A stretch of DNA of 64,000 nt from Isoetes taiwanensis (lineage: Eukaryota > Streptophyta > Lycopodiopsida > Isoetales > Isoetaceae), in NCBI GenBank assembly GCA_021234155.1, contig JAJEKV010000279.1, positions 274,501 through 338,500 on the forward strand, written 5' to 3'. Both the position numbers and the translations under genes were made by a program. Under the pieces are notes generated by a model, which saw only the letters and a program-made list of their open reading frames with translations, did no database searches and was not told where the DNA came from. Shown here piece after piece: positions 5,531 through 43,014 of the stretch. How positions within the stretch are numbered: position 1 is the stretch's first letter; every line of letters starts with the position of its first letter.

Positions 5531-6145
5531 TCAATCTACCTCCCACTCACCTATCGGTTCAGTGTCGACTACTTCGGTGACGAGCCGACCCTTGCATTGC
5601 TCCATGAATGGGGGGTATTGCTTCTCGAAATCTGATTGTAGTACCCACGTAGTGTCTTCCACAAGTAAGCGCGTCCATTTCACTAGGTATTGGAGAAATT
5701 GGGATCCTCTTGTCTTCTTATAGGCCCTGTCAAGAAGAACCTCTGGGACGATTTCAAGCTGGTCGTCCATCATTTCCAGTAACTTTGTTGTCTCCAATAC
5801 TTCCTCTGGATTAGGAGTGTGCCTCATCAGGAGACTTACATGGAAGATCCTATGGATTTTGAGATGTGCTGGCAGGTCATAGGATTGGCTACCTACTCTT
5901 TTGATTATCCTGAATGGCCCAGCCCATCTTGGAGCAAGCTTCTTACAGTTGCCAATGCGGAGCTTCGCCTGTTTGACTTTGATCTTCAGCCATACGTTGT
6001 CGCCAATCTGGAATTCACTTACCGTTCTGTGCTTATCAGCTATGCTTTTCTGCCTGCTTCTCGCTGTTAGAAAGTATCCTCTTACCTCCTCCACTAGCTG
6101 CTGCATATCCGATAACATCTGCTGGGATACTTCCACTTTTGACAC
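5531..6145 (-). pseudogene. Integrase C-terminus and chromodomain of element A
   Basis: The SH3-like integrase tail reads FQIGDNVWLKIK and APRWAGPFRIIKRVGSQSYDL, followed by HRIFHVSLLMRH. A chromodomain follows (about 5760-5600), with VLLDRAYKKTRG, LQYLVKWTRLLVEDTTWV and a final helix. Chromodomains of plant chromoviruses bind H3 tails methylated at lysine 9 and steer integration to heterochromatin (established for the family). Two of the usual aromatic cage positions appear kept (Y of LQYLVKW, W of TTWV). The ORF is 204 codons and ends at the natural stop. This ties the LTR1 family to chromatin targeting. Confidence 0.85.
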
Positions 6146-16309: not shown

Positions 16310-17580
16310 GTGACTAATACTTGCAGCCAGGAACTTCGGTGCAGGATCTCAAGACAGCGCCGACAACACCAATGGGTAGCAAGAAACTTGTTTGGGCGAG
16401 AACAAGACGACAACAACGAAGAAATGACGGTGGAGACAGTGAATGCAAGGCTCACGCAGATGAGAAACCAGATGCAAATCTGCTTCAGTGGGCAACCCCA
16501 TTGATGAACGCTCAGGAATACGGACCTCCACCTCCACCTCCACCTCCACCTCCACCTCCACCTCTTGTGCAAGGTATTGATGAGGCTCCACAGCCAGAAG
16601 GGGAAGAGAATCAAGGAAATGTTAGGGACAGGAAGAGAAAAAGAAGAAGCAGAAAGAGTCCAACACCATCCAGCTCTAACGTATCAGATACCTCTGACAG
16701 CCAGACCGGTAGCAGCTCCGAGAGCGAGTCAGATGCATCACAGGATAGGAAAAAGAACAGGAAGGCAGATGATTATCAGAAGAAAGTGGATAGTGCCATG
16801 AGTAATGTCTGGAAGACGAGGAAGCTTGGTCAGTTTTCAGGTAAAGACAGGTCAGGCATGGAAGCAGAAGCGTGGCTTGATGAGATGGAGGAATTTGGGA
16901 ATTCCTATGGCATGAAAGACAAGGACATAGGCAAGGTTGCAACAGCCAATCTAATAGGACCAGCCAGGATATGGTGGAAAGGGTATGCTAAGTCTAATAA
17001 GCTGAGACGAAATAGTTGCAGATTCAAGACCTTCAGTAAGGCTTTCCGTAAACATTACGTGCCGAGATCTCACACAAGTAGGCAGATACAACAGTTTTAC
17101 AGATTGGACCAAGGTAACTTATCGGTAGCCAGGTATACCGAAGAATTTATGAGGTTACGACTCAATGTGCCCAGAATCACTGAGAGACAAGCGGTTGAGG
17201 GTTACATTGAAGGGCTCAACAGTAACATCAAGAGGTTAGTTCGAGCAATTAACCCAAGGACAGTCAGGGAGGCCGAGGACAAGGCCTTGAGTTTGGAAGA
17301 AGCACCAGTAACTCCAGGACAGAAACAGTTACCATTCAAGGGTAAAACAACAGGGCAGTATCAGAATAGGCAAGCAGCAAACACGCCAGCCGGAGGCCAA
17401 CAACAAGGGAAAGCTCAGGGAAAGCACTTTGGAGACCGCAGGCCACAGGATGGATCAGGGGGGAGTTCGCCGTCTTTTAGATAGCATCCCTAAGGAAAAG
17501 AGGCAGGAATGCATTGAGAAGAAGTTGTGTTTTAGGTGCTTCCAGCCAGGGCACAGAACACACAACTGTCCATTCGTCAT
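16310..17580 (+). pseudogene. gag of element B (inverted segment)
   Basis: The N-terminus is in frame 16310-16504 (RNLFGREQDDNNEEMTVE) and shifts into 16321-17484. A proline run of about 14 residues comes from a CCTCCA microsatellite (16526-16564). A basic and serine-rich linker follows, then the gag domain with ARIWWKGYAKSNKL, FRKHYVPRSHTSRQIQQFY and YTEEFMRLRLNVPR. A frame change leads to the zinc knuckle CFRCFQPGHRTHNC (about 17530-17572), which is intact. It is about 70% like the gag of elements A and D. Confidence 0.85.
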
Positions 17581-18177
17581 GCAAGCAGCGTTGGCAGAAC
17601 TTGCAGATTGGGAATCTCCAACCGAAGGTGATGATGAAGATGAAGACCAGCAGAAAGACCAAGATTTTATAGAAGGTGAGTGCAAAATCTGTGCAGCTAT
17701 TGAGTCAGGAAATATTGAAAATCAGTCCACAGTCATCTCAACTGAGGGAATCATAGATAGCAGTCCATACCCAGTATTGATAGGTATAGGTAGCTCTCAT
17801 AACTTCGCCTCTCCTAGGCTTGCTGCCCTAATGAAGAGCAAGGCCTTGAAGTCAAAGCCAAGACCAGTTAGCATGGCAAGTGGTGCCATTCGGCACACTA
17901 AGGGGAGGAGGATCACGGTTGACACAGCCTTAGTGGAAGCAAGTGGCCGATGGGGGCAGAGGTGATGGATATTGGAAAGTATGATCTTATAGTAGGAATG
18001 GAGTTCCTAAAGCCAGCTAAAGCCATGATAGACTGCGAGCGCAACGAGATCTCCATGACGGCGCCGGACGACAACCGATTCATAGTAAAAGGTAAGAAGA
18101 TAGCTTCTCCTATGCAGTGCATTTCTATGAAGCAGCTGAGAAAGAGTATAGAAGGAAACAAGGTGGATTATATTCTG
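17581..18177 (+). pseudogene. Protease of element B, active site lost
   Basis: The segment expected to read LIDTGS reads LIGIGSSHNFASPRL (about 17775-17820), so the catalytic aspartate is gone. The second half reads YDLIVGMEFLKPAKAMIDC (17980-18035). The frame then runs straight into LTR2 at about 18178, so RT, RNase H and integrase were deleted before or during the formation of this copy. Confidence 0.8.
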
Positions 18178-18997
18178 AGGTTAGAGGCAATATGGAGGGA
18201 GGATCCCTGCTGAGCGTGGCTACTGGGGATCCCATAGCGGGCTGAGCCTATGGTCGGTCACTTTGTGTGGGCCGGGCATGGGTCTGACACCTCCTGGGGC
18301 AATGGTGTCGCCCTGCCTCTCAGGAGTTGCAAGTGCCGGCTTGGCTCCTGTTTTGGGGGGTTAAGTCGGGTACGATTCATGTGTCATCACGATTCTCTAG
18401 CCGCCTGTGGAACCTCTAGACCCCGGGAAGGGGAGATGCAACCCTTCCTGCCTCGACGGACCGGGGAGATGCAACCTGGAGTAGTCCCGATGGGTGATAC
18501 CATGGGATTGCGTATTCGGAAGGCTAGAGTCATGCCAAAGCCCGATCTAGCTCACTCTACAAAGTATGCACAGGAGGGGCGGATGGAGTGGTCAACCCTA
18601 GCCATTGTCTATAGTCAGCCCCGCCACTGTTATGACTCGATCTGCTCTATCTTGAGGCCTAGCCGGTCAGTCATCCTGCTTATGAGTCGGAGCCATGGGT
18701 AGGAGCTCTCATGTTTTATGGCATATGTTTATCTTCTTTGTAGTTATAGATATGTGGATGGGCTACCCTTCGAGGTAGTATGATGTATTGTTATTGCTAG
18801 TTCTGACGTTGTTTATGCTTCCGCTGTGATAGGAGCCCATAGGGGAAGGGCATGCAAGACACCTTCGTGTCCCCTACCCGCACTAGGGTCATCTCAGAGT
18901 GCGGGATAGACGGAGGGCCCGTGCGGTCGAAGGACCGGATGGGGAATTTCCTGCGGAGTGTACGGCCGGGCGCCGTATATTTAGCAGGGAGCGTCAC
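18178..18997 (+). repeat. 3' LTR2 of element B, 5'-truncated
   Basis: Starts within LTR2 at GAGGTTAGAGGCAATA (the equivalent in the 5' LTR is near 33605, read leftwards) and runs to the terminal GCGTCACA at 18997. It matches 33600-33080 and 25937-25661 read on the minus strand. Long frames here are chance. Confidence 0.9.
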
Positions 18998-19157
18998 AGT
19001 AAGTAAACATAAGCACATGACATCAATATACATCAACAAAGTCACCCCGAAGGGCACATCATAACATACATGTAATAGCATATCAATAACATCCTCATCA
19101 CATGGGGGATCCTACCCAAGGCTCAGACTGGACAGAATTCATGGCAAATGGACTGTA
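18998..19157 (-). repeat. 3' LTR of element A, third piece, with B's target duplication
   Basis: The first five bases, GTAAG, are the complement of CTTAC at 34431. The piece matches element D's LTR at 43198-43350 (for example ATCCTACCCAAGGCTCAGAC). Read on the minus strand it continues the piece ending at 16213. Confidence 0.85.
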
Positions 19158-19789: not shown

Positions 19790-20590
19790 ACAAGGTTTTA
19801 TCTTTCTCCTTTAATTCCTTGGTCATTAGGGTCACTCTCTTGGCATGCATGGTGCACGCTCTTGAGTCTTCAAAATGCTGCACCAGCTTCTGCTCAGTTG
19901 CTTCTTACAAGGCTAGCAGCATCTCGCCTGTGACCCTCATGCTCGTGTCGAATTCTTGCACGACCTCCTTCACGAGCCTGGCAAATGGTGCTCCGGGAAT
20001 GAGAAGGCCGTAGCTTCTCTGAAAGTGTCGGATCTCTCGGACGGCTTGTGATAGTTTCGATCCGGCTTTCCTTGCTATTGGCTTCTTGGGGGGGTTTCTC
20101 TGGAGGTGGCTTGAGGGTCTTCTTCTTCGATGGCCGTCCTCCTTCGATGTACGTGACCTTGTTCGCCTGATAGTAGGAGTTGTAGGCCTCCCACTTCTTC
20201 ATATATTCCTGGTAGGCCTTCAACTTCTTCTGGTAGACCCTGCGATGGTCTACCACATAAGACTCCCGGGCAGGTCGGGGTGGCTTCTTCGGATCTTTGT
20301 CCTTCGCCCACGTGGGGTAGGGTGGGGGTGTCTGTATCTGCCGATCCTGGTCTGTCCGATCCTCGTCTGTTGGCTTGGAGGAGCTCCCTGCCTCTTGATT
20401 AGGGTTGTAATCTTCATCATCTGAGTCATCCGAGGATGGGGGCTGGTCGGGCGGCCGTTCGTTGATGACAATTTTGGTCAATGGAGTCTTCTTGAGCTTC
20501 CTCTTGGGCTCCTCCTTGTCTTTGCCCTTGAGTTTCTTCTTCTCCCCTGCCTCCTGCTCCTCTCGCTTTCTCTTCTTCTCGGCCCAAGTT
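19790..20590 (-). pseudogene. Second, N-terminally truncated ORFa in element B
   Basis: Unknown protein, homologous to 25097-23990 and to element D's ORFa. It starts inside a lysine/glutamate-rich coiled-coil-like stretch (KKRKREEQEAGEKKKLK). Next come a DDSDDEDYNPN acidic patch, PPPYPTWAKDKDPKKPPRPA, the conserved box KKLKAYQEYMKKWEAYNSYY with YIEGGRP, and a C-terminal part (shifted frame) with RHFQRSYGLLIPGAPFARL and HAKRVTLM. The N-terminal H3-like end is missing. Its place between ORFb and gag is unlike element D and suggests an insertion or template switch. Confidence 0.6.
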
Positions 20591-20696: not shown

Positions 20697-22205
20697 TCAG
20701 CGAGAGCCTTTTCTTGAGCTGAAGAATTTCTTGACGTCCTTAAGTCGGAGGCCCTTGCCGATGTTGTGTAGAATGTTCCTGGAGGATCGACCTTCGAGAG
20801 CTCGAGCCATCTGAGGTGGAGGGAGCGGAGGTGCTGATGCTGCAACTATCGTCAATGGCGCGCCTCTCAAATGACCCCTTGGGAAGTCAAGACTATGAAG
20901 GGCCACGGATCCCTTGAAAAGGATGACGTGGTCCGTGTTGCTGCTCAGCTTAGCATGCTGCCCGAACCCCGAAAGTGCCACGAATTCTTCTCCTCGCGGG
21001 CTGAACTCTTTGTGGAAGACTACCATCTGCCCCTGACTGAGGACTGAAAGATAGTATCTGAGCGCCTTTGCCCTTCCTATGGTCTGAGTACCTGTGCCCT
21101 TCCTTTGAGCTGCTCCACCGTAGACGTCTACTGCTAGGAGGTCTTCATGATCTGTCCACATAGTGGTTGCACTTTCTAAGTTGATGCTGCTAGATGCTTC
21201 CCGCATGCTCCTTGATCGAACCGTTCGGCTAGAGCTTGGGCCCCTCCCTGGTTTGTACAATCTGTTTTGGATTTCCTGGAACTCCTCCTATGGGATGATT
21301 GGCTCCTGTTGGCAATATATCTCCCTTATTTGCTCGTAGGCGGCGATGTCGGACATTGTCTCGCCGGCATAGGAGTGTCGCTCTGCTATTTCCCTTGGGA
21401 TTTCTTGATAGGAATAATCGATGAAGTCGCTCTGCTGCTTCTTTGCAATCAGGCCTAGGAGCTCATCAATTCTAAGCCCCTCTTCTTGGCAATATGGAAG
21501 GTTGAGGATGTCGTTTGCCAAGATATATTATTCCCCATCAATTACTATCGGGAATAGGGTTGTGATGCCAATTGGAGGTTCGGTGGCATGCCTGATGTCG
21601 TCCTCGTGTCTGGCTATGTGCCTCTCCATTCTTCTCGCTTCCCTGCTCTCCCAATCCGGGTTTTCTTCCCCTAGCTGCTCGTAATCATGCTCGATTTGCA
21701 GTGCTGAACCCCTGATGTTATGCCATGGTACACGTACTCTGATGATTCGATCTCATGGATCTGGCTCTGCTCTTTTCTTGTGTTGAGTGGCGCCAGGTCT
21801 AGGGGTTGGATTGAAGGTTCCGCAACCTTGTTGATGGCCCTGTACTGCATAAATAAGGAGATGGTTGCTTGTGCCGAAACATATTTGTGCCTGCTGGCCT
21901 TGTAACTCATGTAATATGGCATACTGCTCGTCCTGTGTCATAGCTGCCCTTTGACTCTGGATCCCCCCCAATGACTTGGCTCAGCGACTCTAAAGATACC
22001 CACTTCCCTCCCCTAGGTGGAAGGCTAACTTCCCATGGTAGGATGTTTTGGTCATACTAGCAAATTATATCAGTGTAGAAAGGGGTCCTAGTCAGGGTTG
22101 CGTGGAGGTCGAAGAGATGATGAAACACATGGAGGCCTCTTCAGCAGGGAAAGCACAGATGTGGTTGGCACTGTTGTACTATTGAACAAAGTTTGTTGGT
22201 GCCAT
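20697..22205 (-). pseudogene. ORFb of element B
   Basis: Diverged homologue of ORFb in A and D; function unknown. The start at 22205 aligns with the FRRWY N-terminus (here MAPTNFVQ, then YNSANHI after a stop). A middle block, MPYYMSYKASRHKYVSAQA then EPSIQPLDL, lies at 21922-21800. The C-terminal domain (21260-20697) has RAKALRYYLSVLSQGQMVVF, FSPRGEEFVALSGFGQHAK and NILHNIGKGL. Several frameshifts. The C-terminal domain is the best conserved part across the three copies, which hints that it is the functional core. Confidence 0.6.
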
Positions 22206-23989: not shown

Positions 23990-25097
23990 CCTTTAGGGCA
24001 AGTGCAGGTCGTTTGGCATGACCGTGACACGTTTGGCATGGATTGCGCAAAGGTTCCCTTCTTCAAAAAGCTGCGTCATCTCCGTCTATGCTGCCTCTTG
24101 CAGTGCCCGGACGGTTAGGGGTGTCACCCTATAATCTGTCCTGAACTCCTGCATTATCTTGCGCAAGGCGCCTTCCTAATTAGGAGATTAGTACACTGTT
24201 GAAAGTGCCTAATCTCCCTGAAAACTCGTGCATGCCTCGAATTAGGTCCATGATGGACCTTCTTCAGCGGCTCCGTCTGGGTGGAGGCGGCTTGGGCTGG
24301 TTCTTCGGCCGCCCTCCCTTAACGTACTTCTGTACGTTTTGTTTACAGTACCAGTCATTGTACCTCGTCCACCGACGGAGGTACTCTTGGTACACCTTCT
24401 TGCGACGCAAGAATTCACGGTCCTGCTTCAGTGTGAATTCTCGCTCTCCCACCTTCTGCTTCTTAATTACCTTCGGTGGCTTGGGCCACTTCGGGTAAGG
24501 TGGGCGAGCGTCGGGGTTTGAGGGTTCCCCGGCGTATCCTTGCTCTTCAACTTCCTCTTCTTCCTCCTCCACTTCCTCGTCGGGAGATCGACGAGGTTCT
24601 TCTATTCGGACCGTCCCTCTTGGGCGGTCCTGCTCCCTTTTCGTCCTCTTCTTCCTTCTTCGCGCTTCCTTCTCCTGCTCCCTCTTCTTCCTAGCTGCCT
24701 TCTCTTCTGGCCACTCAGTGACCTTCTCCTTCTCCTTCTTCGTCATGGAGGTGCCAACCTCCTCCTGACGTGGCTGCTGCTGCTGCTCTTGTTCTTGGTG
24801 CTCCTCTTCCTGGTGTTCCTCCTCCCCGCGTTCCTCCTCCTGGTGTTCCTTCTCTTGGTCGGACAGAGGGCCGAAATGAAGAGTCTCGCCGGTTCGTTGA
24901 GTCTCTACTGACGACGAGCTGCTCTAAGGCTCCTCCTGCGAGGCATGAAAGGTCTCGTCCGTCGAACTGGACGACTTCTCTTCCTGCCTCGACCGGAGGT
25001 GCTCTGGTATCTGCTTCCCATGTCCTCCAGCTGCTGCTGCCATCGAAGGGGAGCGCCTTGGGCCAACTTTTCTCATGGTGCATTTTGTTCTTGCCAT
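23990..25097 (-). pseudogene. ORFa of element B, with histone H3-like N-terminus
   Basis: Unknown protein. The first ATG on this side of the primer site (25097) opens MARTKCTMRKVGPRRSP; eight of the first ten residues equal the histone H3 start MARTKQTARK, with lysines at the H3 K4 and K9 positions. The frame continues through one stop (about 24930), an E/Q-rich run, a K/R/E-rich coiled-coil-like stretch (24740-24620), an acidic run, RPPYPKWPKPPKV, the conserved box KKVYQEYLRRWTRYNDWY with YVKGGRP, and a shifted C-terminus ending [11 protein letters not shown]. Nothing after residue 10 resembles a histone fold, so it is not a captured H3 gene. Confidence 0.65.
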
Positions 25098-25648
25098 GTC
25101 TTACGGTTAAGGAAACTGATGACGTTAGGCTGATCAAGAGAGAGAATGGCTTAGGCAAGGTTAGGGGGGAAATGAGGTGGCAAGAAGATATTTAAAAGGG
25201 AAGATGCTCTAGGGAATATTCCCCTACCATTAATAGGTCTAATAATTAGTCCCCTTTTATTAAGTACTCCAGTATACCTATTTATTTGTATAAAGTTAAT
25301 ACTGTATTATGCTATGAATTCGAATTTTTCCTAATGGTTTGAAGTGTTAATTATGAATTTGCGCCATTTTTCGCCCAGGTTTCGGATTGGCATGATTCTT
25401 CGACTCATTTTAGGTGAAAGATGCTGATGCATAATTTCCACTCCAATTTTACTAGAATGTTAATTTGATTCATTCTTTTTACTCATGTAACAACTTAGCC
25501 TATTCTTACGGACCCACTACCTAGGAGAAAAATTTTCCCCTATTTTCGAGGTTCCATGGTGGAAATTTTCATTTCACACCCTATTAGGCCTGTTAGACTA
25601 CTTTTAGGGACATGGTCAGTGCTAGTTCTTGGTCAACCAAGAACATCA
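25098..25648 (-). other. Leader of element B with a hairpin by the primer site
   Basis: No ORF. A perfect 20-bp inverted repeat, GTTCTTGGT-CA-ACCAAGAAC (25625-25644), lies five bases from the primer site. Element D has a shorter version (TTGGT-CT-ACCAA) at the same place. A TTTAAATA box at about 25187-25194 lies about 90 bp before the ORFa ATG. Confidence 0.55.
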
Positions 25649-25659
25649 CTCTGATACCA
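25649..25659 (-). promoter_or_regulatory. Primer binding site of element B
   Basis: TGGTATCAGAG on the minus strand, one base after the 5' LTR end at 25661. It is complementary to the 3' end of initiator methionine tRNA, the usual primer of plant Ty3 elements. Confidence 0.9.
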
Positions 25660-25660
25660 T

Positions 25661-25937
25661 TGTGACGCTCCCTGCTAAATATACGGCGTCCCGGCCGTAC
25701 ACTCTGCAGGAAATCCCCCATCCGGTCCTTCGACCGCACGGGCCCTCCGTCTATCCCGCACTCTGAGATGACCCTAGTGCGGGTAGGGGACACGAAGGTG
25801 TCTTGCGTATATCACAGCGGAAGCATAAACAACGTCAGAACTAGCAATAACAATACATCATACTACCTCGAAGGGTAGCCCATCCACATATCCATAACTA
25901 CAAAGAAGATAAGCATATGCCATAAAACATGAGAGTT
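25661..25937 (-). repeat. 5' LTR2 of element B, downstream piece
   Basis: Ends with CGTCACA at 25661 and matches 18997-18715. It is cut at 25937 by element C. The last five bases, 25933-25937 (GAGTT), are the left copy of C's target duplication. Confidence 0.9.
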
Positions 25938-26410
25938 TGTTAGAACCTGAACTCTAACCTTGCAAGAAGGATGAAAAACCCAACAATCCAAGCTCAATCT
26001 ATCAGATCAAGACAATGCACAACACAAAGAATCATCATCTCCATAGCTAGATCAAGCAAAAACACTCTCTCCCAATACACCGTCCCTCTCTTCTTTTCTT
26101 CTCTCTCTGCTCAGATAATACAGTGGTCATAATGGCTCCATAATGCGTACGTGCAAATATCATGCACGCGTGCATGTGCGTATCTCCCTCCATATACGGT
26201 ATATAATCTCCTATACCACCTCAATAATGGTGAGTGTGGTGAGTGGTGACAAGTGTGGTGAGTGGTGACGAGTGTGGTGAGTGGTGACAAGTGTGGTGAG
26301 TGGTGACGAGTGTGGTGATGAGTGTGGTGATGAGTGTGGTGAGTGGTGACAAGTGTGGTGAGTGGTGACGAGTGTGGTGATGAGTGTGGTGAGTGGTGAT
26401 CACCCCAACA
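25938..26410 (-). repeat. 3' LTR of element C
   Basis: 473 bp. Nearly identical to 32683-33074 apart from a longer minisatellite and two small indels. Confidence 0.92.
26229..26399. repeat. Minisatellite in element C's 3' LTR
   Basis: 19-mers GTGTGGTGAGTGGTGACAA (or ...ACGA) mixed with 12-mers GTGTGGTGATGA, about ten units. The 5' LTR copy (32960-33060) has about six, so copy number changed after insertion. Confidence 0.9.
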
Positions 26411-26804
26411 GTGGCGACCACAGTGGGAAAATATGCCACTCCGTGGCGGAGAACCCACAACAAAACATACTACTATGGTCCTTGGGACATGTCCCCAAAT
26501 GACCCATTCACACCCTTCTCAAATCCAAATGACTGATACAAACAAACTGGTCCAAAATGACAGTGACGAAACAGAGCCTCTGTAACTGTGGCAAACGTTG
26601 AAAGCTGATATCTTGAGTTGCAGACCTCCGTTTGACCTGCACCATAGCTCGTTGGATTCGTATCGCCGAAACACATCTTTTGATGTAGGATAGATTGTGT
26701 ATTATAGAACTGTCACCATCTGTTTTTACAGAAAAACGACCTGCTGTAACCCAAAAGTTCTCCACAAATTCTCTGTAATTGGAGCTATACCAAATCTGAA
26801 TCCC

Positions 26805-26993
26805 TTAGAATAGCACTTCTCTTTCAAAATAAGGCCTGAAATCCTTGCCATTTCTGGGATTAGGCAACAATTCCCCTTCTGGAGTCATCAAGTAGAAAGC
26901 CCCACCTGGTACCTCTTTATCAATCAGAAATGGGCCTTCCCATGGGCTTTGAAATTTAGATAGATGCTGCTTAGTGGTCCTACACAACACCAA
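26805..26993 (-). pseudogene. Integrase C-terminus of element C
   Basis: Reads FQSPWEGPFLIDKEVPGGAF and LLPNPRNGKDFRPYF, the typical integrase tail of Tat-like elements, ending at a natural stop. Between 26994 and 27174 the linking segment is present with stops. From 26411 to 26804 there is no further ORF and no recognisable env gene. Confidence 0.75.
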
Positions 26994-27174
26994 TTGGCCT
27001 TCCTCAAATGGATTGACAACCTGTAACTTATCTTACTTTCTGTTTATGCCTCATATTGAAGTCTGCTGCTTCTTGTCTCATCTCCTGCAATTGCAGCAAA
27101 TCATCCATCCTATTATGCACTTGATTTGGAGTTGGAACTTCTCCTAAATTCTCATAATAAGGTAGCTCCACAAA

Positions 27175-29076
27175 TCAACACAAAGGAATGTCCAAATGAA
27201 TAGGCATCACAGCTTGCACTCCATAAACCAATTCAAATGGTGTAAATCCTGTAGCCAACTTGTAAGTATACCTGAAACTCCATAATGCACCTGTCAAGGC
27301 TTCATGCCAATTTCTTTGATTATCCTTCACTGTTTTGGCCAAGATAGCTTTCAGAATTTTGTTAGTAGACTCAGCTTGTCCATTTCCCTGTGGATAATAA
27401 GCAGAAGCTTGTACATGTTGAACACCAATCTTTTCTGTTAACTGAGCTTCTACTTTCCCCATGAAATGAGTTCCCCGATCAGACAAAAGAATGGTTGGAA
27501 CACCAAACCGAGAAATCAAATTGTGATAAAGAAAGCTTACTGTGGTACTTTCTGTAGCATGCTTTGCTGGAATTGCTTCTACCCACTTCGTAAACATGCA
27601 TGTGGCTGCCAAGATATACTTATGACCTTTGGAAGATGGAGGATTGATAGGCCCAATGTAATCCAATCCCCACATATGAAATGGACCAACGCTCAAAATA
27701 GGGTGGAATGGCATATTATTGTGGCCTATCAATTGTTTATGCCTTTGACACTTCTCACATTTGCTAACAAAGTCTCTAGTATCCTTGTAAAGAGTTGGCC
27801 AATAATATCCCCAATGAAGGATCTTCCTAGCTGTGGTTCTGGCTGCAAAATGCCCCTGACAATCATGTGCTTGCTGCAACAAATCATGAGTTTGCTGACC
27901 AGCAACACACCTTAATAAGAGACCTTCCATAATCCTCTTATAAAGAATAGCCTCATGCACCACATAACCAGCTGCTTGTACTCTAAGAGCATGCTTTTGT
28001 TGCTTTGAAAATGATGAAGGATAAGTCTGATCTTGTAAATACCTGTATATATTGGCATACCAAAGATCCACGGTCTCAATGAACCCCTGTAATACTCCAT
28101 TATCCTGAAATGCTACTTGCTGGTCTGTTTCCTCTTCTATTTCAGCACCACTACTCAAATAGGCACTTGGATTATGAGCTCCTTGAGCCATCTTAACATA
28201 CTTCAACTCAAATTCTTGTATGATAAGAGCCCATCTTGTAAACTTAGGATCTTGGACAGTCTTATTGTAAATGCATGGCAATGGGTTGACATCCATATGA
28301 ATGTAAACATATTGTACATTTGCTGAATTCCATTGTGAAGGAAGAAGATAATGTCTAAATTTATTCAAAGCCCACTTCAATGCCAACCCAAGATGCTCCA
28401 CATGAGTCCATTTCTGCTCTTGTGGAGTTAACACCCTGCTAGCATAGTAATTCACATCATAATGCTTTTGCTGATTTTTCTGACATAGTGTGACAGCCAA
28501 AGCTTGCTCCCAAACTGTAAAGAATAAATGAAATGGCTCACTCATTCTCGGAGGAATCAACAAAGTTCTCTCTTTTAATTGTGCAAGGCACCATTCAAAT
28601 GCTTCTTGAGCATCTTCCTTCCATCTAAAATGCTGCCCTGGCTTCATACAATCCACAAGTGGCTGGGTTACTTTAGCAAAATTATGCAAATACCTCCTAC
28701 TAAAACTGAGTTGGCCATATAAACTTCTCACTTGGGATACATTTGTAGGTGGTTTGACCTTCTCCAAGGCTGCAATCTTACCATGATCCACTTGTAATCC
28801 CTTTTCTGAAACATAATTGCCCAATAGTTTTCCTCCTCTAGTGAAGAAAATACACTTAGCAGGATTCAAACTTATACCATACAGCCGGCATCTTTCAAGA
28901 ACTTTTCTGAGATGATCCAAGTGATCCTTTCTTGGATTAGAAAATACTGTTAAGTCATCTGTAAAGACTCTCAAAAAGTCTAAAATATCATGAAAAGCAT
29001 ATGTCATAGCTCGCTGAAATGTGGCTGGAGCAATTTGTAAGGCCAAAAGGTAATACCTTATAAGCATAGATGCCAA
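27175..29076 (-). pseudogene. RT (3' part), RNase H and integrase of element C
   Basis: A long frame of 633 codons. It starts within RT (ATFQRAMTYAFHDILDFLRV, then FTDDLTVFSNPRKDH with the TDD active site). It then has the thumb (SLYGQLSFSRRYLHNFAK), the RNase H region and integrase: zinc-binding HDCQGHFAART with CEKCQRHK, then WGLDYIGPINPP, LLSDRGTHFMGK and YYPQGNGQAESTNKILKAI for the DDE triad. RT and integrase copy and insert the element. Frame breaks on both sides show it is no longer functional as it stands. Confidence 0.9.
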
Positions 29077-29555
29077 AAGGTGTTCGAATAGATTTGGATC
29101 TGATTATATCCTGAGTAACCATCCAAGAAAGAATAGGCCTGATTTCCTGCAACAATATCCAGCAAAGTGTCTATGAATGGTGTAGGAAAATGATCTCTTT
29201 TGGTAGCTTTGTTGAGATCCCTGTAATCAATGCATACTCGGATTGACTTATTTGGCTTTCTCACTGGTACAATAGAACTGATCCAATCTGAATTTGGCAC
29301 TGGTACAATAAATCCTGCCTCCAAAAGCTTCATGACTTCAACCTTTACTTGCTCCTCTATTGCTGGACTCATTCTCCTTTGAGCTTGTTGGACTGGTTTT
29401 GATCCTTGTTTCAAATCAATGGTATGAACCACAACCTCTAGTGGAATGCCTTTCAATTCTTTGTAATTTCTTGCCAAAACATCTCTGAATTCTCGTAACA
29501 AAGATATCAAATCACGTTCCTCCTCTTGAGTAAGATCGCCTCCAATAGTAACCAA
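29058..29555 (-). pseudogene. RT N-terminal part of element C
   Basis: Reads EVMKLLEAGFIVPVPNSDW, RKPNKSIRVCIDYRDLNKAT and SFLDGYSGYNQIQI. It is separated from the next part by a frame change with a likely small deletion near 29070, and from the upstream part by a frameshift near 29520. Confidence 0.85.
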
Positions 29556-30403
29556 TTCTTCTTGATTTCCTTGAGAAATATTGATGTTCTTGACTGAATG
29601 TGGTGACTGTAATGAAGGTGGTGAGTGTGGTGACGAATGTGGTGAATGTGGTGAATGTGGTGACAGTGATAAATGTGGTGTGTGTGATGACTGTGGTGAC
29701 TGTAATGGATGTGGTGGATGTGATGAATTTGGTGCATGTGGTGACTGTAATGACTGTGGTCAATATGGACTGATCTGATTTCCTCATCCTCCAGAATGTG
29801 CGCATGCCACCAAGCTGCTTTTCCTTGTATAGTGGGCTGATTTATGTTTACCCCATCCATGCTTGATGTCAAAATTAGCATCTCTACTTGATCTTGATCA
29901 ATACCTTGCTGAAATAAAGTCTCAGCAATGGGTCTTTGAATGGACTCCTCCTGCATGTTTACAAGAGTCTCTTGTAACTCACCTTCACCAATACTTTCAA
30001 GTCTTTGGATATACTTGTCTGTAACTTGCTGCTGTAAATGACATATTTCAGAAATTTGGGTACCTTTTAACCACTTGTACAAAGTCTTATCTTCCCTGCC
30101 ACCCACTTCCAAGACATGAAAACAACTAAGACCTTGCTGGCCTGACACCATAGCATTCTCTTTGCTGATTTCTAACTGCGGGCTGCTCAAAGAAGGATTG
30201 CAAAGAAAGGTACCTTTTACTGATTTCAGAGGATGATCTATAGTAACCTTGTGTTCTCCTTGAAAGATGTTCATTTCGCGCTTCCTCCATGAAGTCTCAG
30301 TTTGTACGGCATCTAACCATGTACGGCTCAGCAACAAAGTATAAGTTTCAGCATGCACACTCTCTGGAAATTTCAAAACCATGAAATCCAAGATTGCTTC
30401 CAC
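29507..30403 (-). pseudogene. Protease-RT linker of element C with a histidine repeat
   Basis: Follows the protease after a TGA (30436). The first part (VLKFPESVHAETYTLLLSRT) ends the protease region. An unrecognised linker follows, then a histidine-rich tract of about 55 residues in His-His-X triplets (IHHIHHIHYSHHSHHTHH) encoded by a 9-bp repeat at 29598-29762. The frame ends at 29507 and overlaps the RT frame through a one-base shift. The tract could bind metal ions or be a neutral expansion. Confidence 0.7.
29598..29762 (-). repeat. Nonamer repeat coding for the His-His-X tract
   Basis: About 18 imperfect copies of a 9-bp unit (plus strand AATGTGGTG or ACTGTGGTG). Its GTGGTGA words recall the minisatellite in the same element's LTRs. 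Confidence 0.85.
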
Positions 30404-30436
30404 CTCATAGACCTTGCATAAGACATGTCTTATGAC

Positions 30437-32356
30437 TCACATAGGTTGCACCTTCATTTGATTGAATGCTTTGAGCATCATAGTTGTCGGTTCCATCATT
30501 TTCAATCCAACTTGAAGCATTATGTGGTAAGGCATTACATTCACTCCGCTGCCGGTATCTATGTTGGCATCTTTGATTAAATATCCATTGATACTCACAT
30601 CACAAAGAAATGGCCCTGGATCCTTGGATTGCCGGGCTGGTGGTTCCATTCTACTTTTATTGGTATCATTGGATATGATTTGTTGGACTGAAATTTCTGA
30701 TTTTGTTCTTCCCCCTAACTCTTGCAACAAATTTGGAGAATAATGCATCAATTGCTCCAAAGTAAGTGTAACTTTAGTGGCCAAAACTTGGCTGATCACA
30801 TCATCTTCATTTTGAATTTCCTCATCCACCATAGGAGGCATCACTATGGGCTGATTTTCTTCTATAGACTGAAACTGTTCTGTGGGCAGCACATTGAATT
30901 GCACCTTCTTAGGTGCTGACACCTTCAAAGCTTGTTCCTTCAAAGCCTTTGGAAAAGAGGTCTTAGTCTTCTCCGCAATTGGCACTACTCTTGGTTCTTG
31001 CACCACCTTTTGTGATCTTGTAACCGCATTTACTTCTCCAATCTCTTCTTCTTGCTGAAATGGGTCACTATCTACCTCAACAAATCCACAATTTACTACT
31101 GATTTTGCCCTCTCTTGTTTCTTAAGCTCCTCAATAAGAGCCTTAACTTGAGGATTATCAATGTACTTTGCATCTTGAATGCGAACATCATTATTAGGAA
31201 GAGGTACTGATTCAAACACTTGCTGCTTTGGTGGATACTTGTTGGTTGCCCATTCTGGTTTCCCATGGATTTTCCAACATGTAGTCTCATCATGCTTGAA
31301 TTTATCACATAACTTGCAATACAAATGAGCCTTACTTGGATACCATCCCTGTTTTGGCTGCACCATTTGTGTGGAACCCATTGGAACTTGTTGGGCAATT
31401 GGAGCTTGTAGCATCATTGGAACTTGTGGTATGATAGGTGCTGCTTGCATTGGTTGAATAGGAATAGGTGGTGCTTGTTGCATAACAGCAAATACTGGAT
31501 TGGCCCTCTCAAAGAATCTCTTCTCCCTACATTCTTGATCATTATGACCTTTTATTTGGCATCTTGAGCAGAATTTCAGCAATCTACATGTAGCATCAGA
31601 ATGCCCAATAGACCCACAATACTCACAAGTAATAAACTGCACCTCCCTTGGCTTCTCACCAATTGCAAGCTTAGAAATCTTGGCTGCAATATCCTCTGTT
31701 TTATGCTCTGGAGCAGCAACTTCATGAATGTATCCCAACTTATCTTCAGCCTTGAGAGCATACTTTTGTGCCTCTAACAATGTTGTAGGCTGATTATCCT
31801 TCACCTTATGAGCAATAGCTCGTTTCAGCCCCTTCACATACCATTGGATATCCATTTCATCATTCCTGACAATCTTCCAATGAACCACAGCTTTGAGAAC
31901 CGCAATATACCTCTGATTATACTCTCTAATTGATTCATCTTCCTTTTGTGTGAAATTGGTCCACCTTTCCATAGTCTTATCCTTACCATGAACTTCTTGA
32001 TAATTGGCAATGAAAGCTTCCTTTAATTCCGGATATGTCATGGTATCTGGCTGAGTTTGTGCCCATTCCTCCACTGAATCTTGCAAAGAACTATGAAACC
32101 AAAGCAAATAATCAGCAGCCGGTAACTTACATTGCTGGCAATACCTCTCAAACTTCACAATATGCTTCAAAGGATCCCGATCTACCAGATCATCAAACTT
32201 TGGAATCCCCATTATCTGAAAACCCCATACCATAGGTGGTAATACAGCCATCTCTGCCTCTTCTTGGGTTTCTTGAAATTGGAAAAACGAAATTGAATCT
32301 CCCTTCAATTTGAAAAACGAAATTGGATTACCTTCTAGATCGGTAAATGGAATCAA
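30437..32356 (-). CDS. gag-protease ORF of element C
   Basis: An open frame of 639 codons. The gag domain reads FERYCQQCKLPAADYLLWF, SVEEWAQTQPD, FIANYQEVHGKDKTMERW and IREYNQRYIAVLKAV. Three CCHC zinc knuckles follow: CEYCGSIGHSDATC, CSRCQIKGHNDQEC and CKLCDKFKHDETTC. A P/Q-rich linker leads to the aspartic protease with NIDTGSGVNVMP (about 30550-30515). It ends at a TGA (30436-30434), after which the same frame continues with protease-like sequence; this is either a decay mutation or a recoded stop. The gene makes the particle shell and the processing enzyme. Confidence 0.9.
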   Translation of the reverse strand: MIPFTDLEGNPISFFKLKGDSISFFQFQETQEEAEMAVLPPMVWGFQIMGIPKFDDLVDRDPLKHIVKFERYCQQCKLPAADYLLWFHSSLQDSVEEWAQTQPDTMTYPELKEAFIANYQEVHGKDKTMERWTNFTQKEDESIREYNQRYIAVLKAVVHWKIVRNDEMDIQWYVKGLKRAIAHKVKDNQPTTLLEAQKYALKAEDKLGYIHEVAAPEHKTEDIAAKISKLAIGEKPREVQFITCEYCGSIGHSDATCRLLKFCSRCQIKGHNDQECREKRFFERANPVFAVMQQAPPIPIQPMQAAPIIPQVPMMLQAPIAQQVPMGSTQMVQPKQGWYPSKAHLYCKLCDKFKHDETTCWKIHGKPEWATNKYPPKQQVFESVPLPNNDVRIQDAKYIDNPQVKALIEELKKQERAKSVVNCGFVEVDSDPFQQEEEIGEVNAVTRSQKVVQEPRVVPIAEKTKTSFPKALKEQALKVSAPKKVQFNVLPTEQFQSIEENQPIVMPPMVDEEIQNEDDVISQVLATKVTLTLEQLMHYSPNLLQELGGRTKSEISVQQIISNDTNKSRMEPPARQSKDPGPFLCDVSINGYLIKDANIDTGSGVNVMPYHIMLQVGLKMMEPTTMMLKAFNQMKVQPM

Positions 32357-32659
32357 AACCTCCTGGATCTGAGAATTAGACCCCAGATCTGCTCCGAATC
32401 TTGATGCAATTTTGAGCCCAAAGATTGACTCACCGGTCCCCTTCTTGTTACGATAGAGCTTGGTGGGATGTCCTTCTTACTTCTCTTGGGCATAAAACTA
32501 TGCTCCCTTTGTCAAACTTACCCCACAAATCAATTACGGCAAAATCCCCTTCACCTAAGAAATTGCTCCTTCCTCAATGGTGTCATTCTTTACCGACGAT
32601 CACCAATACCAATGGTAACAACTCCTTTTTCAATGGAAATTCTTGCCGATCAATGGTCT

Positions 32660-32682
32660 GTCGAGCACCGTGGTCGCCAAAT
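32660..32682 (-). promoter_or_regulatory. Primer binding site of element C
   Basis: Directly after the 5' LTR the minus strand reads ATT then TGGCGACCACGGTGCTCGAC. The complement ends in GGTCGCCA, as an arginine-type tRNA 3' end would; Tat/Ogre elements are known to use tRNA-Arg. A near copy in the other orientation (GTGGCGACCACAGTGGGA) abuts the 3' LTR at 26411. Confidence 0.6.
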
Positions 32683-33074
32683 TGTTAGAAACTCTAACCT
32701 TGCAAGAAAGATGAAAAACCCAACAATCCAAGCTCAATCTATCAGATCAAGGCAATGCACAACATCATCATCTCCATAGCTAGATCAAGCAAAAACACTC
32801 TCTCCCAATACACCGTCCCTCTCTTCTTTTCTTCTCTCTCTGCTCAGATAATACAGTGGTCATAATGGCTCCATAATGCGTACGTGCAAATATCATGCAC
32901 GCGTGCATGTGCGTATCTCCCTCCATATACGGTATATAATCTTCTATACCACCTCAATAATGGTGAGTGTGGTGAGTGGTGACAAGTGTGGTGAGTGGTG
33001 ACGAGTGTGGTGATGAGTGTGGTGAGTGGTGACAAGTGTGGTGATGAGTGTGGTGAGTGATGATCACCCCAACA
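32683..33074 (-). repeat. 5' LTR of element C
   Basis: 392 bp, TG...CA, with a shorter minisatellite than the 3' LTR. Confidence 0.92.
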
Positions 33075-33079
33075 GAGCT

Positions 33080-34620: not shown

Positions 34621-35587
34621 GCGCTCCAAATGGAGAGACGCTAGGTCTTATAAACCCTAGGTCTAGCAACTCCTGCAGTTGCTTCTTCAGTTCCGTCAAC
34701 TCCTGAGGTGAAATTCTATAGGGTGCCTTGCTTGTTGGCTTCGTCCCTGGCTCAAGTGCTATTTCACACTCGACTCCCCTGTAAGGTGGAAGTTTTTTTA
34801 TCTCATCTGGGAACAAATCATGGGTTCCTTCATTAGCTTTGCTATTGGCTTTGGCAGCTTGCTCGATGCTTTTGCCTCCTTGTCTTCCTCTGTTTCTGGC
34901 TCCTCAACTTCGAGCTTAAAGACATAGGCCACTTGCTCCTTCTTTATGCATCTAAGTAACTTCTTGCTAGACATGCATTGCATGATTGGGGTGATTTCTT
35001 TACCTGTTATCTCAATGATTTTGCTATCTGGCATCGTTAAGGTGACTTTTCGCTTCCCACAATCAATCACAGCTCCAGCCGAGCTAAGGTATTCCATGCC
35101 TATGATCAAGTCATACTTGCCGATGTTCATCACATTTGCTCCCATTCCAACGTTGATACCTAGCAAGTCTATGTCGAAGTTGATCCTCTTTCTTGCTATA
35201 TGTCGGATTGCCCCATTTGCCAACACAACAGGCCTAGGCCTAGACTTCAAAGGCTTCAGCTTCAACATCTTTGCCATCCTTGGCGAAACAAAATTATGGT
35301 CGCTCCCCATGTCTATCAACACTATAAAGGACTTGGCTTTGACTTTTTCAATAGTCGAGATGACTTGGTATTATACTCTCGGCATTCTCAGAGTCAATGG
35401 CAGCGAAGATGTGGCACTCACCCTGGATGTAGTCGCAAGCATCTTCTTTGTCGATCTCCGGGGATGCCTCCCATCCTCTTAGCTCTGCTAGTGCCACATT
35501 CATCACAAAGGGGCAGTTGTGTGTCCGATGTTCTAGTTGGAAGCACCTGAAGCACAACTGCTTTTCAATACATTCTTGCTGCTTCAC
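34621..35587 (-). pseudogene. Protease and RT start of element D
   Basis: The zinc knuckle CFRCFQLEHRTHNC (about 35545-35500; the usual glycine is replaced by glutamate) is followed by the protease. The active site reads LIDMGSDHNFVSPRM (35320-35276) with methionine in place of the usual threonine or serine after the aspartate. The second half has YDLIIGMEYLSSAGAVIDCG. After a frame change the RT start reads [18 protein letters not shown] and ends at SPFGA, where A's LTR begins. Confidence 0.85.
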
Positions 35588-36810
35588 TGCTTTGGAGTAG
35601 TTTGAACCACCCGCTTGCTCTTTTCCCTGAAGCTGACCTGCTTCTTGTCCTGCTTGCCAAAATTTTCATTCCTTGCTTTCCATAGTTTGCATTGTACTGA
35701 GGTCTAGCAGCTGCCGGGATTGTTGCTCTTGGGCTATAGCTTCCCGTAGCTTTTTCCTTGTCCTGATAGTACAGTTGCTTCTGTCCATTACCTTGGGGAC
35801 CTGTTTCTTGTAAGCTCACGGCCTTTAACTCTGCTTCTGACACTGTTCTAGAATGTATAGCTCTCGCAAGCTTCCTGATCTCCTCATTCAAGCCTTCAAT
35901 ATAACCCTCTATTGCGTGTCTTTCGCTCAACTTTGGCACATAAAGCCTCAGCCTCATAAACTCTTCGGTGTACTTCTAGACCGTCTTATTGCCCTGCTCC
36001 AACCTAAAGAACTGTTGCATCATATAGCACTTGTGTTCCCTCGGCATATAATGATGCTTAAATGCCTTGAAGAACTTCTTGGATCTATAGCTATCTCTGC
36101 TTAACCCATGGGCTTTGGCATAGCCTTCCCACCAAATTCTGGCTGCTCCCTTGAGGTTGGCTGTCGCTACAATGCCCTTGTCCTTATCTTTCATGCTATA
36201 AGCATTCCGGACGGTACTCTCTCATTTCATCCAACCAAATCTCGGCTTCCATCCCTGACTTGTTGTCTCCTGAGAACTGTTCCAGCTTCCTGGCGTTCCA
36301 CACATTGCTCAGTGCGGAGTTGACTTTCTTCTGGTAGTCGGCTTCAATCCTGCCCTTATCATGGTTGGGACCCTTCCGGCGGTCCTGTCGATCGTTGTCC
36401 TGCTCCTCAGATTTAGAGTCGGAGTCGGAACTAGAGTTGAAGGAATCCATGCTAGGGGATCTCCGGTTCCTCTTCTTTGCCTTGTCTGTTCTGCCAGCAG
36501 GTGTTTGGGGTAGTTGGACATTCTGGTCTGGAGCAATTGCTGCCCTCCTGCCAGCAAGGCTCTTATCTCGTGGATATTCAGTCTCATTTGAGATATCTCC
36601 TCTTCTGGGGTTGGTGCCTCGAACTCTTGGAACAGGTTCTTTGGTTGAAACTGTCTTGCGGGTGTTTGTTCTTCCTGAGGTTGTCGATCTTGTTCTACAT
36701 TCCTGGGTGCTCTAGTTGCATACATATTAGATTGCACTCTTATGATTAGCTTTTGTTTGTTATTGCATTGGTTGTTTGATGATATAGTTGTGGGGACAAA
36801 ATATATCAAA
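35565..36810 (-). pseudogene. gag of element D
   Basis: Broken into four frames. The N-terminus (36734-36500) has NLFQEFEAPTPEEEISQM, preceded by MYATRAPRNVEQDRQP. A middle part has SDSDSKSEEQDND and NVWNARKLEQFSGDNKS. The gag domain has AARIWWEGYAKAHG and YMPREHKCYMMQQFFRLEQ; a TAG follows at 35975, then RLRLYVPKLSERHAIEGY. Same family as the gag of A and B. Confidence 0.85.
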
Positions 36811-36895: not shown

Positions 36896-38387
36896 TTAGA
36901 ATCTTCGATATGCCCGGTTGTCTTCCAAGAACTTCTTCACTTGGGCTGTACCAATTGTTCGCCCCAAGTTCCTAAGAATGTTGGTGGGCGTACCACCTTG
37001 AAGTGCCGTTACAAGGTCTTCGGCTCTGCTATCTGACGTATAGGCCGCAGTGACGGCCAACCTGCCCTGACATCTGAATGGGACGGTGAAGTCGAAGACA
37101 CTCAAGGCTATTGACCTCTTGACCAGGATGTCATGGTCGATGTTTGGAGGCATTTGAGCATGCCTACCAAATCCCGAGAGGGCAATAAGCATGAACACTC
37201 CTTCTTCTCCCCGTGGGCTGAACTGGCAGTGTATGACTGCTATCCTTCCGTCGGTGAGGAGTGGAAGGTAAAACCTGAGGGCCTTGTCATGTGCTCCCTT
37301 TGCTGCCTCTTCTCCGGTTCTGATCCCAGCCTTGTGCCTTCTGAAGTACTCGTTCACAGGTACCGCTATCAAGTCTCTGTAGTCTGCAAACATGGACCTG
37401 AAAGAGGTCAAGTTGATGTCGCCTCTTTCTAGCCTGGCTGGCGCTGTTGATGAGGTGTTGGGCAGGAGCGCGATTGTCATCTTTCCCCTAATGCCCATCC
37501 GTTCCTGGATGGCTATAAATTCCTCCTCTGAGGGCAGCTCTTGTTGTATCATCATCTACCGAATGCCGGTGTAAGCTTCAATGTTGGATGATGACTGTCC
37601 AGTGTAAGTGTGGGCTTCCCTGATGCTGATGGGGAAGTCTTGCGTCTCTCCGTCGATGAAGTCACCGAGATCAGGTGTTGGCACAGAAGATGCAGGAGTT
37701 CATCAACCCTATAGCCTCTGTCTCTACACTCCAAGAGGTTCTTTATGTCGTGCAGCATCAGGTACTCTTGGCCTTCTATGATGACCTGGGTTAGACTGGT
37801 GATGCCTAACCCAAGTGGAGGAGCTGTTCTTGTTATCCTCAAATCTTCGTCGAAGCCCTGAAGGTCTTCTTCTGCTTGTTGCCCTTTGGGGTCGACGTCG
37901 ATGATGTCTTCAACGTCGTAACCTTGTCCTTCCTCTGCCTCTTCCTCCTGCTCTGATCCTTCATACTCTAAGAGCAACTGCTCTTCTACTTCTGAGGCAA
38001 GGGGTTCAATATCCAATGGCTGAATGGAGGGTTCACCTATTGGGCTTAGGCTCTATGGGACAAAAAGATGGCTACAATAGCAGTATAGGAAAAATACCTC
38101 TTCCTGTTTATGGATATGGTCATGTAGTCTGGCATGCGAGCAGCTCTATTTTCTAAATACTTGTTGATGTTTGGAACATCATTCAATTCTATGCATGGGG
38201 GGAGTTCTATCAGAGAAGGGCCTATCTTGGCATGGAACTCAGTCATGATATCTTGGTAGAATGGCGTGGTGTTTATGGTAGCATCCACATCAATCTCATT
38301 TTGAAAAACAGTGAAGACCGAGTTCATGTCAGCCTCAGCCACATGAGCAGTGGCGCTGTACCATCGCCTGAATGATAAAGTGGCCAT
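36896..38387 (-). pseudogene. ORFb of element D, best-preserved copy
   Basis: Function unknown. About 490 codons in three overlapping frames (38387-38046, 38016-37552, 37555-36896), so only two breaks. Order: FRRWYSATAHVAEADMNSVF; NKYLENRAARMPDYMTISI; an acidic linker (EGSEQEEEAEEGQGYDVED); APPLGLGITSLTQ; EYLMLHDIKNLLECRDRGYR; and a C-terminal domain of 220 residues with ELPSEEEFIAIQERMGIRG, ALRFYLPLLTDGRIAVIH, FSPRGEEGVFMLIALSGFG and NILRNLGRTIGTAQVKKF. No cysteine/histidine cluster, nucleotide-binding loop or membrane helix is obvious. It lies between its own promoter and gag. Confidence 0.7.
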
Positions 38388-39059: not shown

Positions 39060-39598
39060 TTCTTTCTTTATGAATCTAGCCAGCTTCATATCCCTGGGCA
39101 TGCATGTAACTCTTTTTGCATGGAGAGCACATGCTAGGGAGTCTTCAAAATGCTGGACCAGCTTCTGCTCGACTGCCTTCTACAATGCAAGCAACATATC
39201 ATGTGTCACTCACTTCCCCTTGTCGGATTCTTGCAAGATTTCACGGGTTAATGTTGTAAATGTAGCCCTTGGAATCAGAAGTCCGTAGCTCCTCTGAAAG
39301 TGTCGAATCTCCCGAGCAGCCTTTGCAAAGTATGAATCCGACTTCCTCTTCATTGGCTTCATTGGTGGTACGAGTCTCTCTGGGGCCGGCTTCAAAGTGT
39401 TCTCTCTTGTTGGCCTTCCTCCTTCCACGTATATCATCTTGTTTGCTTCGTAATACTTTGAGTATGCCTCGTACATCTTCATGTACTCCTGGTACTCCCT
39501 CAACTTCTTCTTGTACTCCCGCTCATGCTTGAGTACGTAAGACTCCCGTGCCGGCTTGACCTTCTTGGAATCTGTTGATGGTTTTGGCCATTTCGGGT
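39060..39598 (-). pseudogene. ORFa of element D, C-terminal part
   Basis: Continues ORFa after insertion W. Reads KPSTDSKKVKPARESYVL, then the conserved box KLREYQEYMKMYEAYSKYY with MIYVEGGRP, then IRHFQRSYGLLIPRA, and after a stop [19 protein letters not shown] followed by VTCMPRD. These blocks match both ORFa copies of element B, so the YQEYxxxxxxYxxYY box, GGRP and HAKRVT are the family's fixed points. Function unknown. Confidence 0.65.
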
Positions 39599-41717: not shown

Positions 41718-42299
41718 GGGTAGGGAGATGGTGCTGCAGCTTCTTCATTGTCGGGATTGGAAGGTCTCGATCCTTCTGTTAGGCGAGGAATTCTCCACGT
41801 CTCATCGTCCGGCTCTGTCTCTGATGAAGAAGATGGTGGCCTATTAGGCTTCTGCTCCGTTATTGTAACCTCTTTGCTCAGTGTTGTCTTTGTTTTCCTC
41901 CAGGGTTTCATTGGCAATTCTGGGTTATTCCCATTGGCCTCCTTCTGCCTCTTGCACTCCTCCTTCTCTGCAAGTCTCTTCCTCTTTGCTGCCTTCTTCA
42001 TCTTGTCGACTTTCCTTTGTCAACGCGCAATCCTCTTTGTTTCCGCCCGGTCCTCCTCATTCTCCTCCTCTTCTCCATTGCCCTGATTCTCTGGGTTTTC
42101 TTGGTTATTAGGCCCTATTGTTGCTCTTCTTGATCCTGATGCTGCTCATCATCCTCCTGAGTGTCTGGGTTTGGGTTTAAATTTCCTTCATCTCTGATCG
42201 CTCTCGAGCCTCCCTCGCCTTCTATTCTGCTGCAAGAACCTGGACGCTTGTCGATCCGTCTGGCATAACCACTCGAGCAGTTTGTTTGGTGTGGGCCAT
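41718..42299 (-). pseudogene. ORFa of element D, N-terminal part with H3-like start
   Basis: ATG at 42299 opens MAHTKQTARVVMPDGST; eight of the first ten residues equal histone H3 (MARTKQTARK), differing at R2 and K9, which are different positions from the copy in element B. A TAG follows about 24 codons in. Further on come a basic coiled-coil-like stretch (KKAAKRKRLAEKEECKRQ) and the patch RPPSSSSETEPDDETWR. It ends at SPYP where W is inserted, and continues at 39598. The promoter lies about 100 bp upstream. Confidence 0.65.
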
Positions 42300-43001: not shown

Positions 43002-43014
43002 GGCTCTGATACCA
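43002..43014 (-). promoter_or_regulatory. Primer binding site of element D
   Basis: TGGTATCAGAGCC on the minus strand, one base after the LTR end at 43016; matches the 3' end of initiator methionine tRNA. Confidence 0.92.

Follow-up and report, generated by a model that had tools for sequence, protein, structure and literature searches.

Plants silence transposons through H3K9 methyltransferases of the SUVH4/KYP type. In a 64-kilobase (kb) stretch of the Isoetes taiwanensis genome (C723:274501–338500; hereafter referred to as the window), two retrotransposon copies, B and D, contain an open reading frame (ORFa) whose product begins much as histone H3 does. What kind of protein follows this start, how widely is it shared, and what might an H3 tail do for a retrotransposon? 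Here we report that a large group of Ty3/gypsy long terminal repeat (LTR) retrotransposons encodes an H3-derived histone ahead of gag, an identification that follows from the H3-like fold behind the tail, its low dN/dS and the Ty3 genes located behind ORFa. The fold is under purifying selection, and the ninth residue of the tail alternates between lysine and hydrophobic residues.

ORFa in the window

Both copies of ORFa lie on the minus strand. The start of copy B (25068–25097, ATG at 25097–25095) reads MARTKCTMRK, with two tail substitutions, and that of copy D (42270–42299, ATG at 42299–42297) reads MAHTKQTARV. As the earlier note had stated, and as we found on re-reading both frames, each matches the H3 start MARTKQTARK at eight of ten residues, with the mismatches at different positions in B and D. 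In a six-frame scan of the window against ARTKQTARK, both tails scored 7/9 and every other stretch 5/9 or less; 20 mononucleotide shuffles yielded 6/9 stretches at 0.2 per shuffle and none at 7/9. The tails are located 562 nucleotides (nt) (copy B) and 715 nt (copy D) downstream of primer-binding sites on the same strand, which presumably pair with initiator tRNA-Met. The site of copy B (25648–25659) has one mismatch and follows an LTR ending in ..CGTCACAA, and that of copy D (43003–43014) is the exact TGGTATCAGAGC and follows an LTR ending in ..CGTCACAG; when two mismatches are allowed, the occurrence of the primer-site motif is not below chance.

Both copies are broken. In copy B, the tail is followed by a linker of acidic and basic repeats (24232–25067, minus strand), which ends in ..YVKGGRPKNQPKPPPP and contains an in-frame stop near residue 58 and another ahead of a decayed H3-type fold (23999–24231, minus strand; REIRHFQQ..LLIRKAP..; tblastn E values of 6e-16 and 7e-4). 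This fold lies in other frames and is disrupted by a frameshift and stops. In copy D, an H3-type fold with two internal stops (39060–39329, minus strand; E = 9e-18) is separated from the tail by a 2.1-kb insertion within ORFa (39599–41720). Since a further tail-bearing locus, L038, is contiguous across the same point, the tail and the fold of copy D represent a single ORF split by the insertion. A third H3-type fold, with one stop and no assigned tail, belongs to an element fragment at 19809–20054 (minus strand; E = 3e-21).

The window also contains other parts of the family. Its conserved second ORF, ORFb, is present as two pieces that probably belong to copy D (38387–38046 and 37555–36896, together 36896–38387, minus strand) and as one piece of copy B (20697–21206, minus strand), and a further ORFb stretch lies at 326–1770. 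The downstream coding remains at 34798–36725 (minus strand), probably also of copy D, comprise a gag-matching segment (36492–35688) and then an open frame (35310–34798). A Ty3 gag of the same family lies on the plus strand at 16372–17484 (Retrotrans_gag, 8e-17; Ty3_capsid, 2e-17), and an integrase C terminus with a chromodomain lies on the minus strand at 5531–6118 (Chromo, 27.3 bits; cut-off, 25.1).

Histone-family LTR pieces at 18177–18998 and at 33606–33074/25935–25661 are in opposite orientation and 91–96% identical, an arrangement that suggests an inversion or two nested copies. A different Ty3-type element, with gag at 32251–30437, pol at 29067–27175 and terminal repeats that are 94% identical, occupies 25937–33075 and is probably nested inside the LTR of copy B. 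At 55052–59457, a unit of approximately 1.45 kb is repeated three times in tandem, the copies being about 94% alike.

The H3 tail and its carriers across the genome

We searched the genome (1,658,258,908 bases in 1,110 contigs) with a degenerate M-ARTKQTAR pattern, which also accepts serine at R2 or R8, and obtained 1,888 matches (904 + 984), as compared with none for the reversed control. ARTKQTAR thus occurs far beyond the two window copies, as a check set by the earlier note had asked. Host H3 genes are ruled out as the origin of these matches: a genome search with H3 found just 15 full-length genes (95–96% identity), and only two of 100 listed places, on C97 and C105, were such genes. From these 100 places we examined 48 tail loci, the first 28 (L001–L028) and 20 further down (L029–L048), all on small contigs and selected by the tail pattern. 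None is an H3 gene and, given the 15 host genes, some 98–99% of the 1,888 matches would be other than host H3.

The tail reads exactly MARTKQTAR in 47 of the 48 loci, the exception being L005 (MARTKQTAS, with serine at residue 8), which supports the proposal in the earlier note that an exact H3 tail was the likely ancestor of the two window versions. At the DNA level, the 48 loci use 35 different spellings of the tail. Three tails were found without selection for the tail, those of copies B and D and of a second element in L027; each departs from the eight residues of ARTKQTAR at one or two places, the sole difference in the L027 element being a stop codon.

ORFa is located between the primer-binding site and gag, and in 10-kb loci the order behind it is ORFb, gag, reverse transcriptase (RT), RNase H and integrase. 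The last three of these lie behind the tail on its own strand in nine loci (L012, L016, L017, L019, L020, L022, L023, L025 and L028), all of which except L028 also have gag. The pol genes of L014 are in the opposite orientation to its tail and therefore represent another element. The claim that the integrase of this Ty3 family has a chromodomain holds beyond the window copy, since the chromodomain part was matched behind exact tails in L025 (Pfam, 21.4 bits, below the cut-off of 25.1) and L028 (tblastn); in L012, L013, L016, L017, L020 and L022 the integrase was matched solely in the part ahead of the chromodomain. The 519-residue ORFb of L017 had no Pfam match, and a comparison of ORFb with the PDB gave no convincing match. 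Of the 48 loci, 13 have a primer site, at a distance of 574–971 nt ahead of the tail, and copies B and D have one as well. Between primer site and ORFa, these 13 loci contain 7–16 ATGs, none of which, in 12 of the loci, is both in frame and open, indicating that translation of ORFa needs splicing or some other route.

The tail is carried by three lineages. The core lineage is of the Ty3 type and has a long linker; one of its members, L009, showed an RT piece only of the tested Ty3 proteins. The IHP lineage (L007, L018, L021, L031 and L034) has a shorter spacer and decayed H3-like folds that are weakly detected, and L034 has a weak ORFb match (29%). The VPG lineage (L011, L015, L037, L045 and L048), grouped by eye, combines the exact tail start with a different protein: neither a histone match nor a relative in the database was found for the 335-residue ORF of L048 (L048:1001–2005). 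The VPG lineage, without a recognizable fold, indicates that tail and fold do not always go together. Its dN/dS is 0.25–0.73 in four of six pairs, the other two being saturated. Searches of L011, L015, L018 and L021 detected none of the tested Ty3 proteins. The downstream frames of L037 and L015 contain the stretch FWIVNGNHTT, and a piece 86% identical to H3 (L018:2–127), clipped by the sequence start, lies 1.9 kb upstream of the IHP-type tail of L018.

A fourth group of H3-like ORFs comprises at least 135 loci (9,090 candidates, 150 scored) and is closer to H3, with 70–85% identity over approximately residues 25–135 and open frames of up to 567 residues (for example, C101:624398–624718 and C974:15275215–15275541). 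No exact tail was found near these ORFs at the seven checkable places (C1, C25, C68, C90, C101, C180 and C224). For PF00125, the genome contains 8,705 first-look candidates.

The histone fold, the linker and residue 9

According to the earlier note, ORFa beyond its start is no histone. This part of it is overturned by the decayed folds of B and D and by an H3-like fold behind the tail, on the same strand, in 39 of the 48 loci (tblastn, E ≤ 0.1, up to 3 kb downstream), 36 of them at E < 1e-6; the matches in L018, L022 and L031 are weak. Under the same tblastn search, nine loci gave no fold (L009, L011, L015, L026, L027, L037, L042, L045 and L048). The Pfam Histone family (PF00125) matches L028 (E = 1.4e-24), L043 (3e-23) and L029 (5e-9), and each of the best 60 of 175 PDB matches for L028 is an H3. 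A single frame of 434 residues runs unbroken in L043 from the tail through the linker to the fold, although four residues of the long helix are missing from that fold. That ORFa is an H3-derived histone is therefore close to certain.

The αN helix and fold are 48–59% identical to those of H3 in gapless alignments of 85–89 residues. Ten folds are gapless against H3 (L002, L008, L010, L014, L023, L024, L027, L028, L033 and L036) and thus have no loop-1 insertion. Across 11 folds and 88 positions, 30 residues are invariant and equal to H3, including R83, D106, C110, K115–T118, D123 and L126, several of which we take to be interface or DNA-contact positions of H3. Departures from H3 include proline at R63 in all 11 folds, F84V and the loss, in most folds, of K79. 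Tail residues 10–46, with K14, K18, K23, K27 and K36, are replaced by a divergent, charged linker of about 200–300 residues that is rich in acidic and basic runs, and a weak GGRP..KQ echo remains beside the fold.

A second genome search did not use the tail pattern but took the L043 ORF, itself tail-bearing, as the query; from 22,590 first-look candidates, 97 ORFs received a score, that of L043 among them. Seventy of the 97 align from residue 1 (58 directly and 12 through a second aligned piece), which denotes similarity and not an exact tail, and the other 27 start later. No stop occurs within the match in 36 ORFs and an internal stop occurs in 61; 26 ORFs, counting L043 itself, extend from residue 1 to at least residue 427 without a stop, and many open frames exceed 440 residues. 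Most of the tail-locus copies examined are disrupted by stops and frameshifts.

Among 11 folds of at least 80 codons, 20 of the 55 pairs could be used and gave a median dN/dS of 0.057, with no pair at or above 1; the remaining 35 pairs are saturated or too close, and the median pS and pN are 0.80 and 0.12. For the linker, dN/dS is 0.14–0.49 in 22 pairs passing a filter that drops the most diverged. Codons A1–R8 of the tail have a pS of 0.79 and a pN of 0.02, as compared with 0.67 and 0.58 for codons 11–18 in an unaligned comparison. That residues 1–8 show no amino-acid change arises by construction, because the loci were picked by their tail, whereas the synonymous spread does not.

Residue 9 is lysine in 27 of the 48 loci, valine in nine, isoleucine in seven, methionine in three, leucine in one and glutamate in one, the last being L005, which is frameshifted and off the tail from residue 8. 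We followed this residue through 37 copies of the core lineage on a midpoint-rooted tree, from which 11 of the 48 loci (L005 and the two other lineages) were dropped and in which the position of L027 is meaningless, since the aligner reversed that sequence. Residue 9 changes state five times on this tree; lysine and hydrophobic residues replaced each other on at least three separate occasions, and no change led to another kind of residue. Outside the core, residue 9 is isoleucine in the IHP type, and valine or isoleucine in the VPG/IFG type. One-step changes of a lysine codon lead to a hydrophobic residue (methionine or isoleucine) in one case and to other kinds of residue in six; that lysine gives way to hydrophobic residues only, despite the six other options, argues for selection. 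The 20 hydrophobic copies would not be readable as methylated K9 by the chromodomain of the element.

A precedent for a hydrophobic residue at this position has been reported: H3K9M has a raised affinity for H3K9 methyltransferases, traps Clr4/G9a and, in fission yeast, dominantly blocks methylation of H3K9, and norleucine at residue 9 likewise raises G9a binding (PMC5030085). The 20 element copies share with H3K9M, as described there, a hydrophobic residue after H3 residues 1–8, but these putative inhibitors are natural, carry valine and isoleucine more commonly than methionine and have non-H3 residues beyond position 9. A literature search on H3K9I together with H3K9M found no reported test of valine or isoleucine at H3 residue 9.

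Relatives and possible function

ORFa resembles cellular core H3 (PF00125) in the exact residues 1–8 and in the αN helix and fold, but differs in being retrotransposon-encoded, in the 200–300-residue variable linker past residue 9, in the frequently hydrophobic residue 9, and in R63P, F84V and the loss of most K79. CENH3 is defined by a divergent tail and a longer loop 1, whereas ORFa has a canonical tail and no loop-1 insertion, which places it outside that class. The elements share the initiator-tRNA-Met-type primer site, gag, RT, RNase H, integrase and chromodomain with Ty3/gypsy chromoviruses that have extra 5′ ORFs; here, however, the first extra ORF is an H3-derived histone. Pathogen proteins such as influenza NS1 carry histone-mimic peptides, short copies of the H3 tail on a parasite protein. 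By contrast, the ORFa tail stands at the true N terminus, spans 8–9 residues and is mostly joined to a histone fold. Virus-encoded histones exist, as the histone doublets of giant viruses and the H4 of bracoviruses. They are alike in role, by description, as core histones of a parasitic element's own, but ORFa belongs to a retrotransposon, is of the H3 type, has an intact N-terminal H3 peptide and places a long linker before the fold.

In comparisons with other species, the linker-bearing L003 ORF (279 residues) matched nothing, and for L043 the 7,996 word-richest candidates included 1,044 matches, the best 120 of which cover 18–37% of the query. Six of these candidates (P0001, P0004, P0006, P0070, P0099 and P0113) were rejected as relatives because they are tandem or fused gene models of ordinary H3. 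We know of no retrotransposon that encodes a histone. Consistent with the statement in the earlier note that such a tail is undescribed in plant retroelements, a search of the open-access PMC literature found no retrotransposon-encoded histone among the matches listed, and we rate the finding as new for retroelements, with virus-encoded histones as the nearest kind. The word 'histone' is absent from the main text of the genome papers of I. taiwanensis (PMC8566536) and I. sinensis (PMC10541799).

What might such a protein do? We propose, at about even chances for the statement as a whole, that ORFa is a silencing-resistant H3 variant that enters chromatin and evades or traps H3K9 methyltransferases. 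Removal of the initiator methionine would expose an authentic N-terminal A-R-T-K, and the conserved fold would pair with host H4, so that ORFa could become part of nucleosomes, or of particles resembling them, either on the DNA of the element or more widely. The resulting chromatin would present the K4 side of the tail, with K14, K18, K23, K27 and K36 gone and with K9 gone in many copies; it would resist H3K9 methyltransferases, and the copies with valine, isoleucine, methionine or leucine in place of K9 may actively trap them. The linker could connect the ORFa particle with other element proteins. Chromatin entry and interference with H3K9-based silencing are here inferred from sequence features. 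Counting against this reading are the retention of K9 in 27 of the 48 loci, the nine loci without a fold, the ATGs that precede ORFa, the late starts and internal stops among the 97 scored ORFs, the changes at R63 and K79 of the fold, and the fourth group, in which no exact tail was found at the seven places checked. A bolder version, which we advance only tentatively, is that the family evolved a silencing-resistant and, in several sublineages, methyltransferase-trapping H3 that disarms H3K9 silencing, with the peptide also deployed in the fold-less lineage.

The chief rival takes the tail as a peptide decoy or hook for host proteins that bind the H3 N terminus (PHD, BAH-PHD and WDR5-type proteins and K4/K9 enzymes), with the fold as a dimerizing or DNA-binding platform. 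Readers of the H3 N terminus grip residues 1–8, which fits the part of the tail that is retained, and the lineage that bears the tail without a recognizable fold and the 20 copies with a hydrophobic residue 9 speak for it as well. A mere platform, however, need not be more constrained than the linker, as the fold is. We consider this reading rather unlikely as a general account: the decoy tail proposed in the earlier note is incomplete for the main lineage, because an H3-like fold under purifying selection follows the tail there, yet it stands, and is favoured, for the five fold-less loci. The location of ORFa beside gag in elements with a chromodomain integrase, together with the acidic and basic runs of the linker, would also suit a histone with a part in replication or target choice instead of one that counters silencing; it would package cDNA or RNA of the element, either in the particle or in the pre-integration complex, or tether integrase to host nucleosomes. 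Taken alone, such a role leaves both the retention of residues 1–8 and the lysine-to-hydrophobic pattern at residue 9 unexplained, and we regard it as improbable.

Plant elements capture host genes, and the stops and frameshifts in most copies would be expected of a captured H3 passenger, or of processed H3 pseudogenes lodged in elements, either of which would do nothing for its carrier. This is very hard to reconcile with the strong constraint on the fold, at which most pairs are synonymously saturated, with the synonymous spread in the tail, and with the same ORF recurring across subfamilies at tree branches of 0.2–0.5, many of its frames remaining open over 440 residues. A chance or convergent likeness of two ten-residue starts, or their local gene conversion, the alternative named in the earlier note, is next to incredible: nothing was found in its favour, the shuffles speak against it, and it is refuted by the 1,888 matches against an empty reversed control and by the histone fold in the same ORF.

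The silencing-resistant variant, if ORFa does work in chromatin, would mean that transposons write part of the host nucleosome code. The copies in which K9 has become hydrophobic would then be naturally evolved counterparts of the inhibitory K-to-M histones known from cancer, and the arms race between transposons and silencing would become testable at single histone residues, with these elements as an extensive collection of naturally occurring H3 variants.
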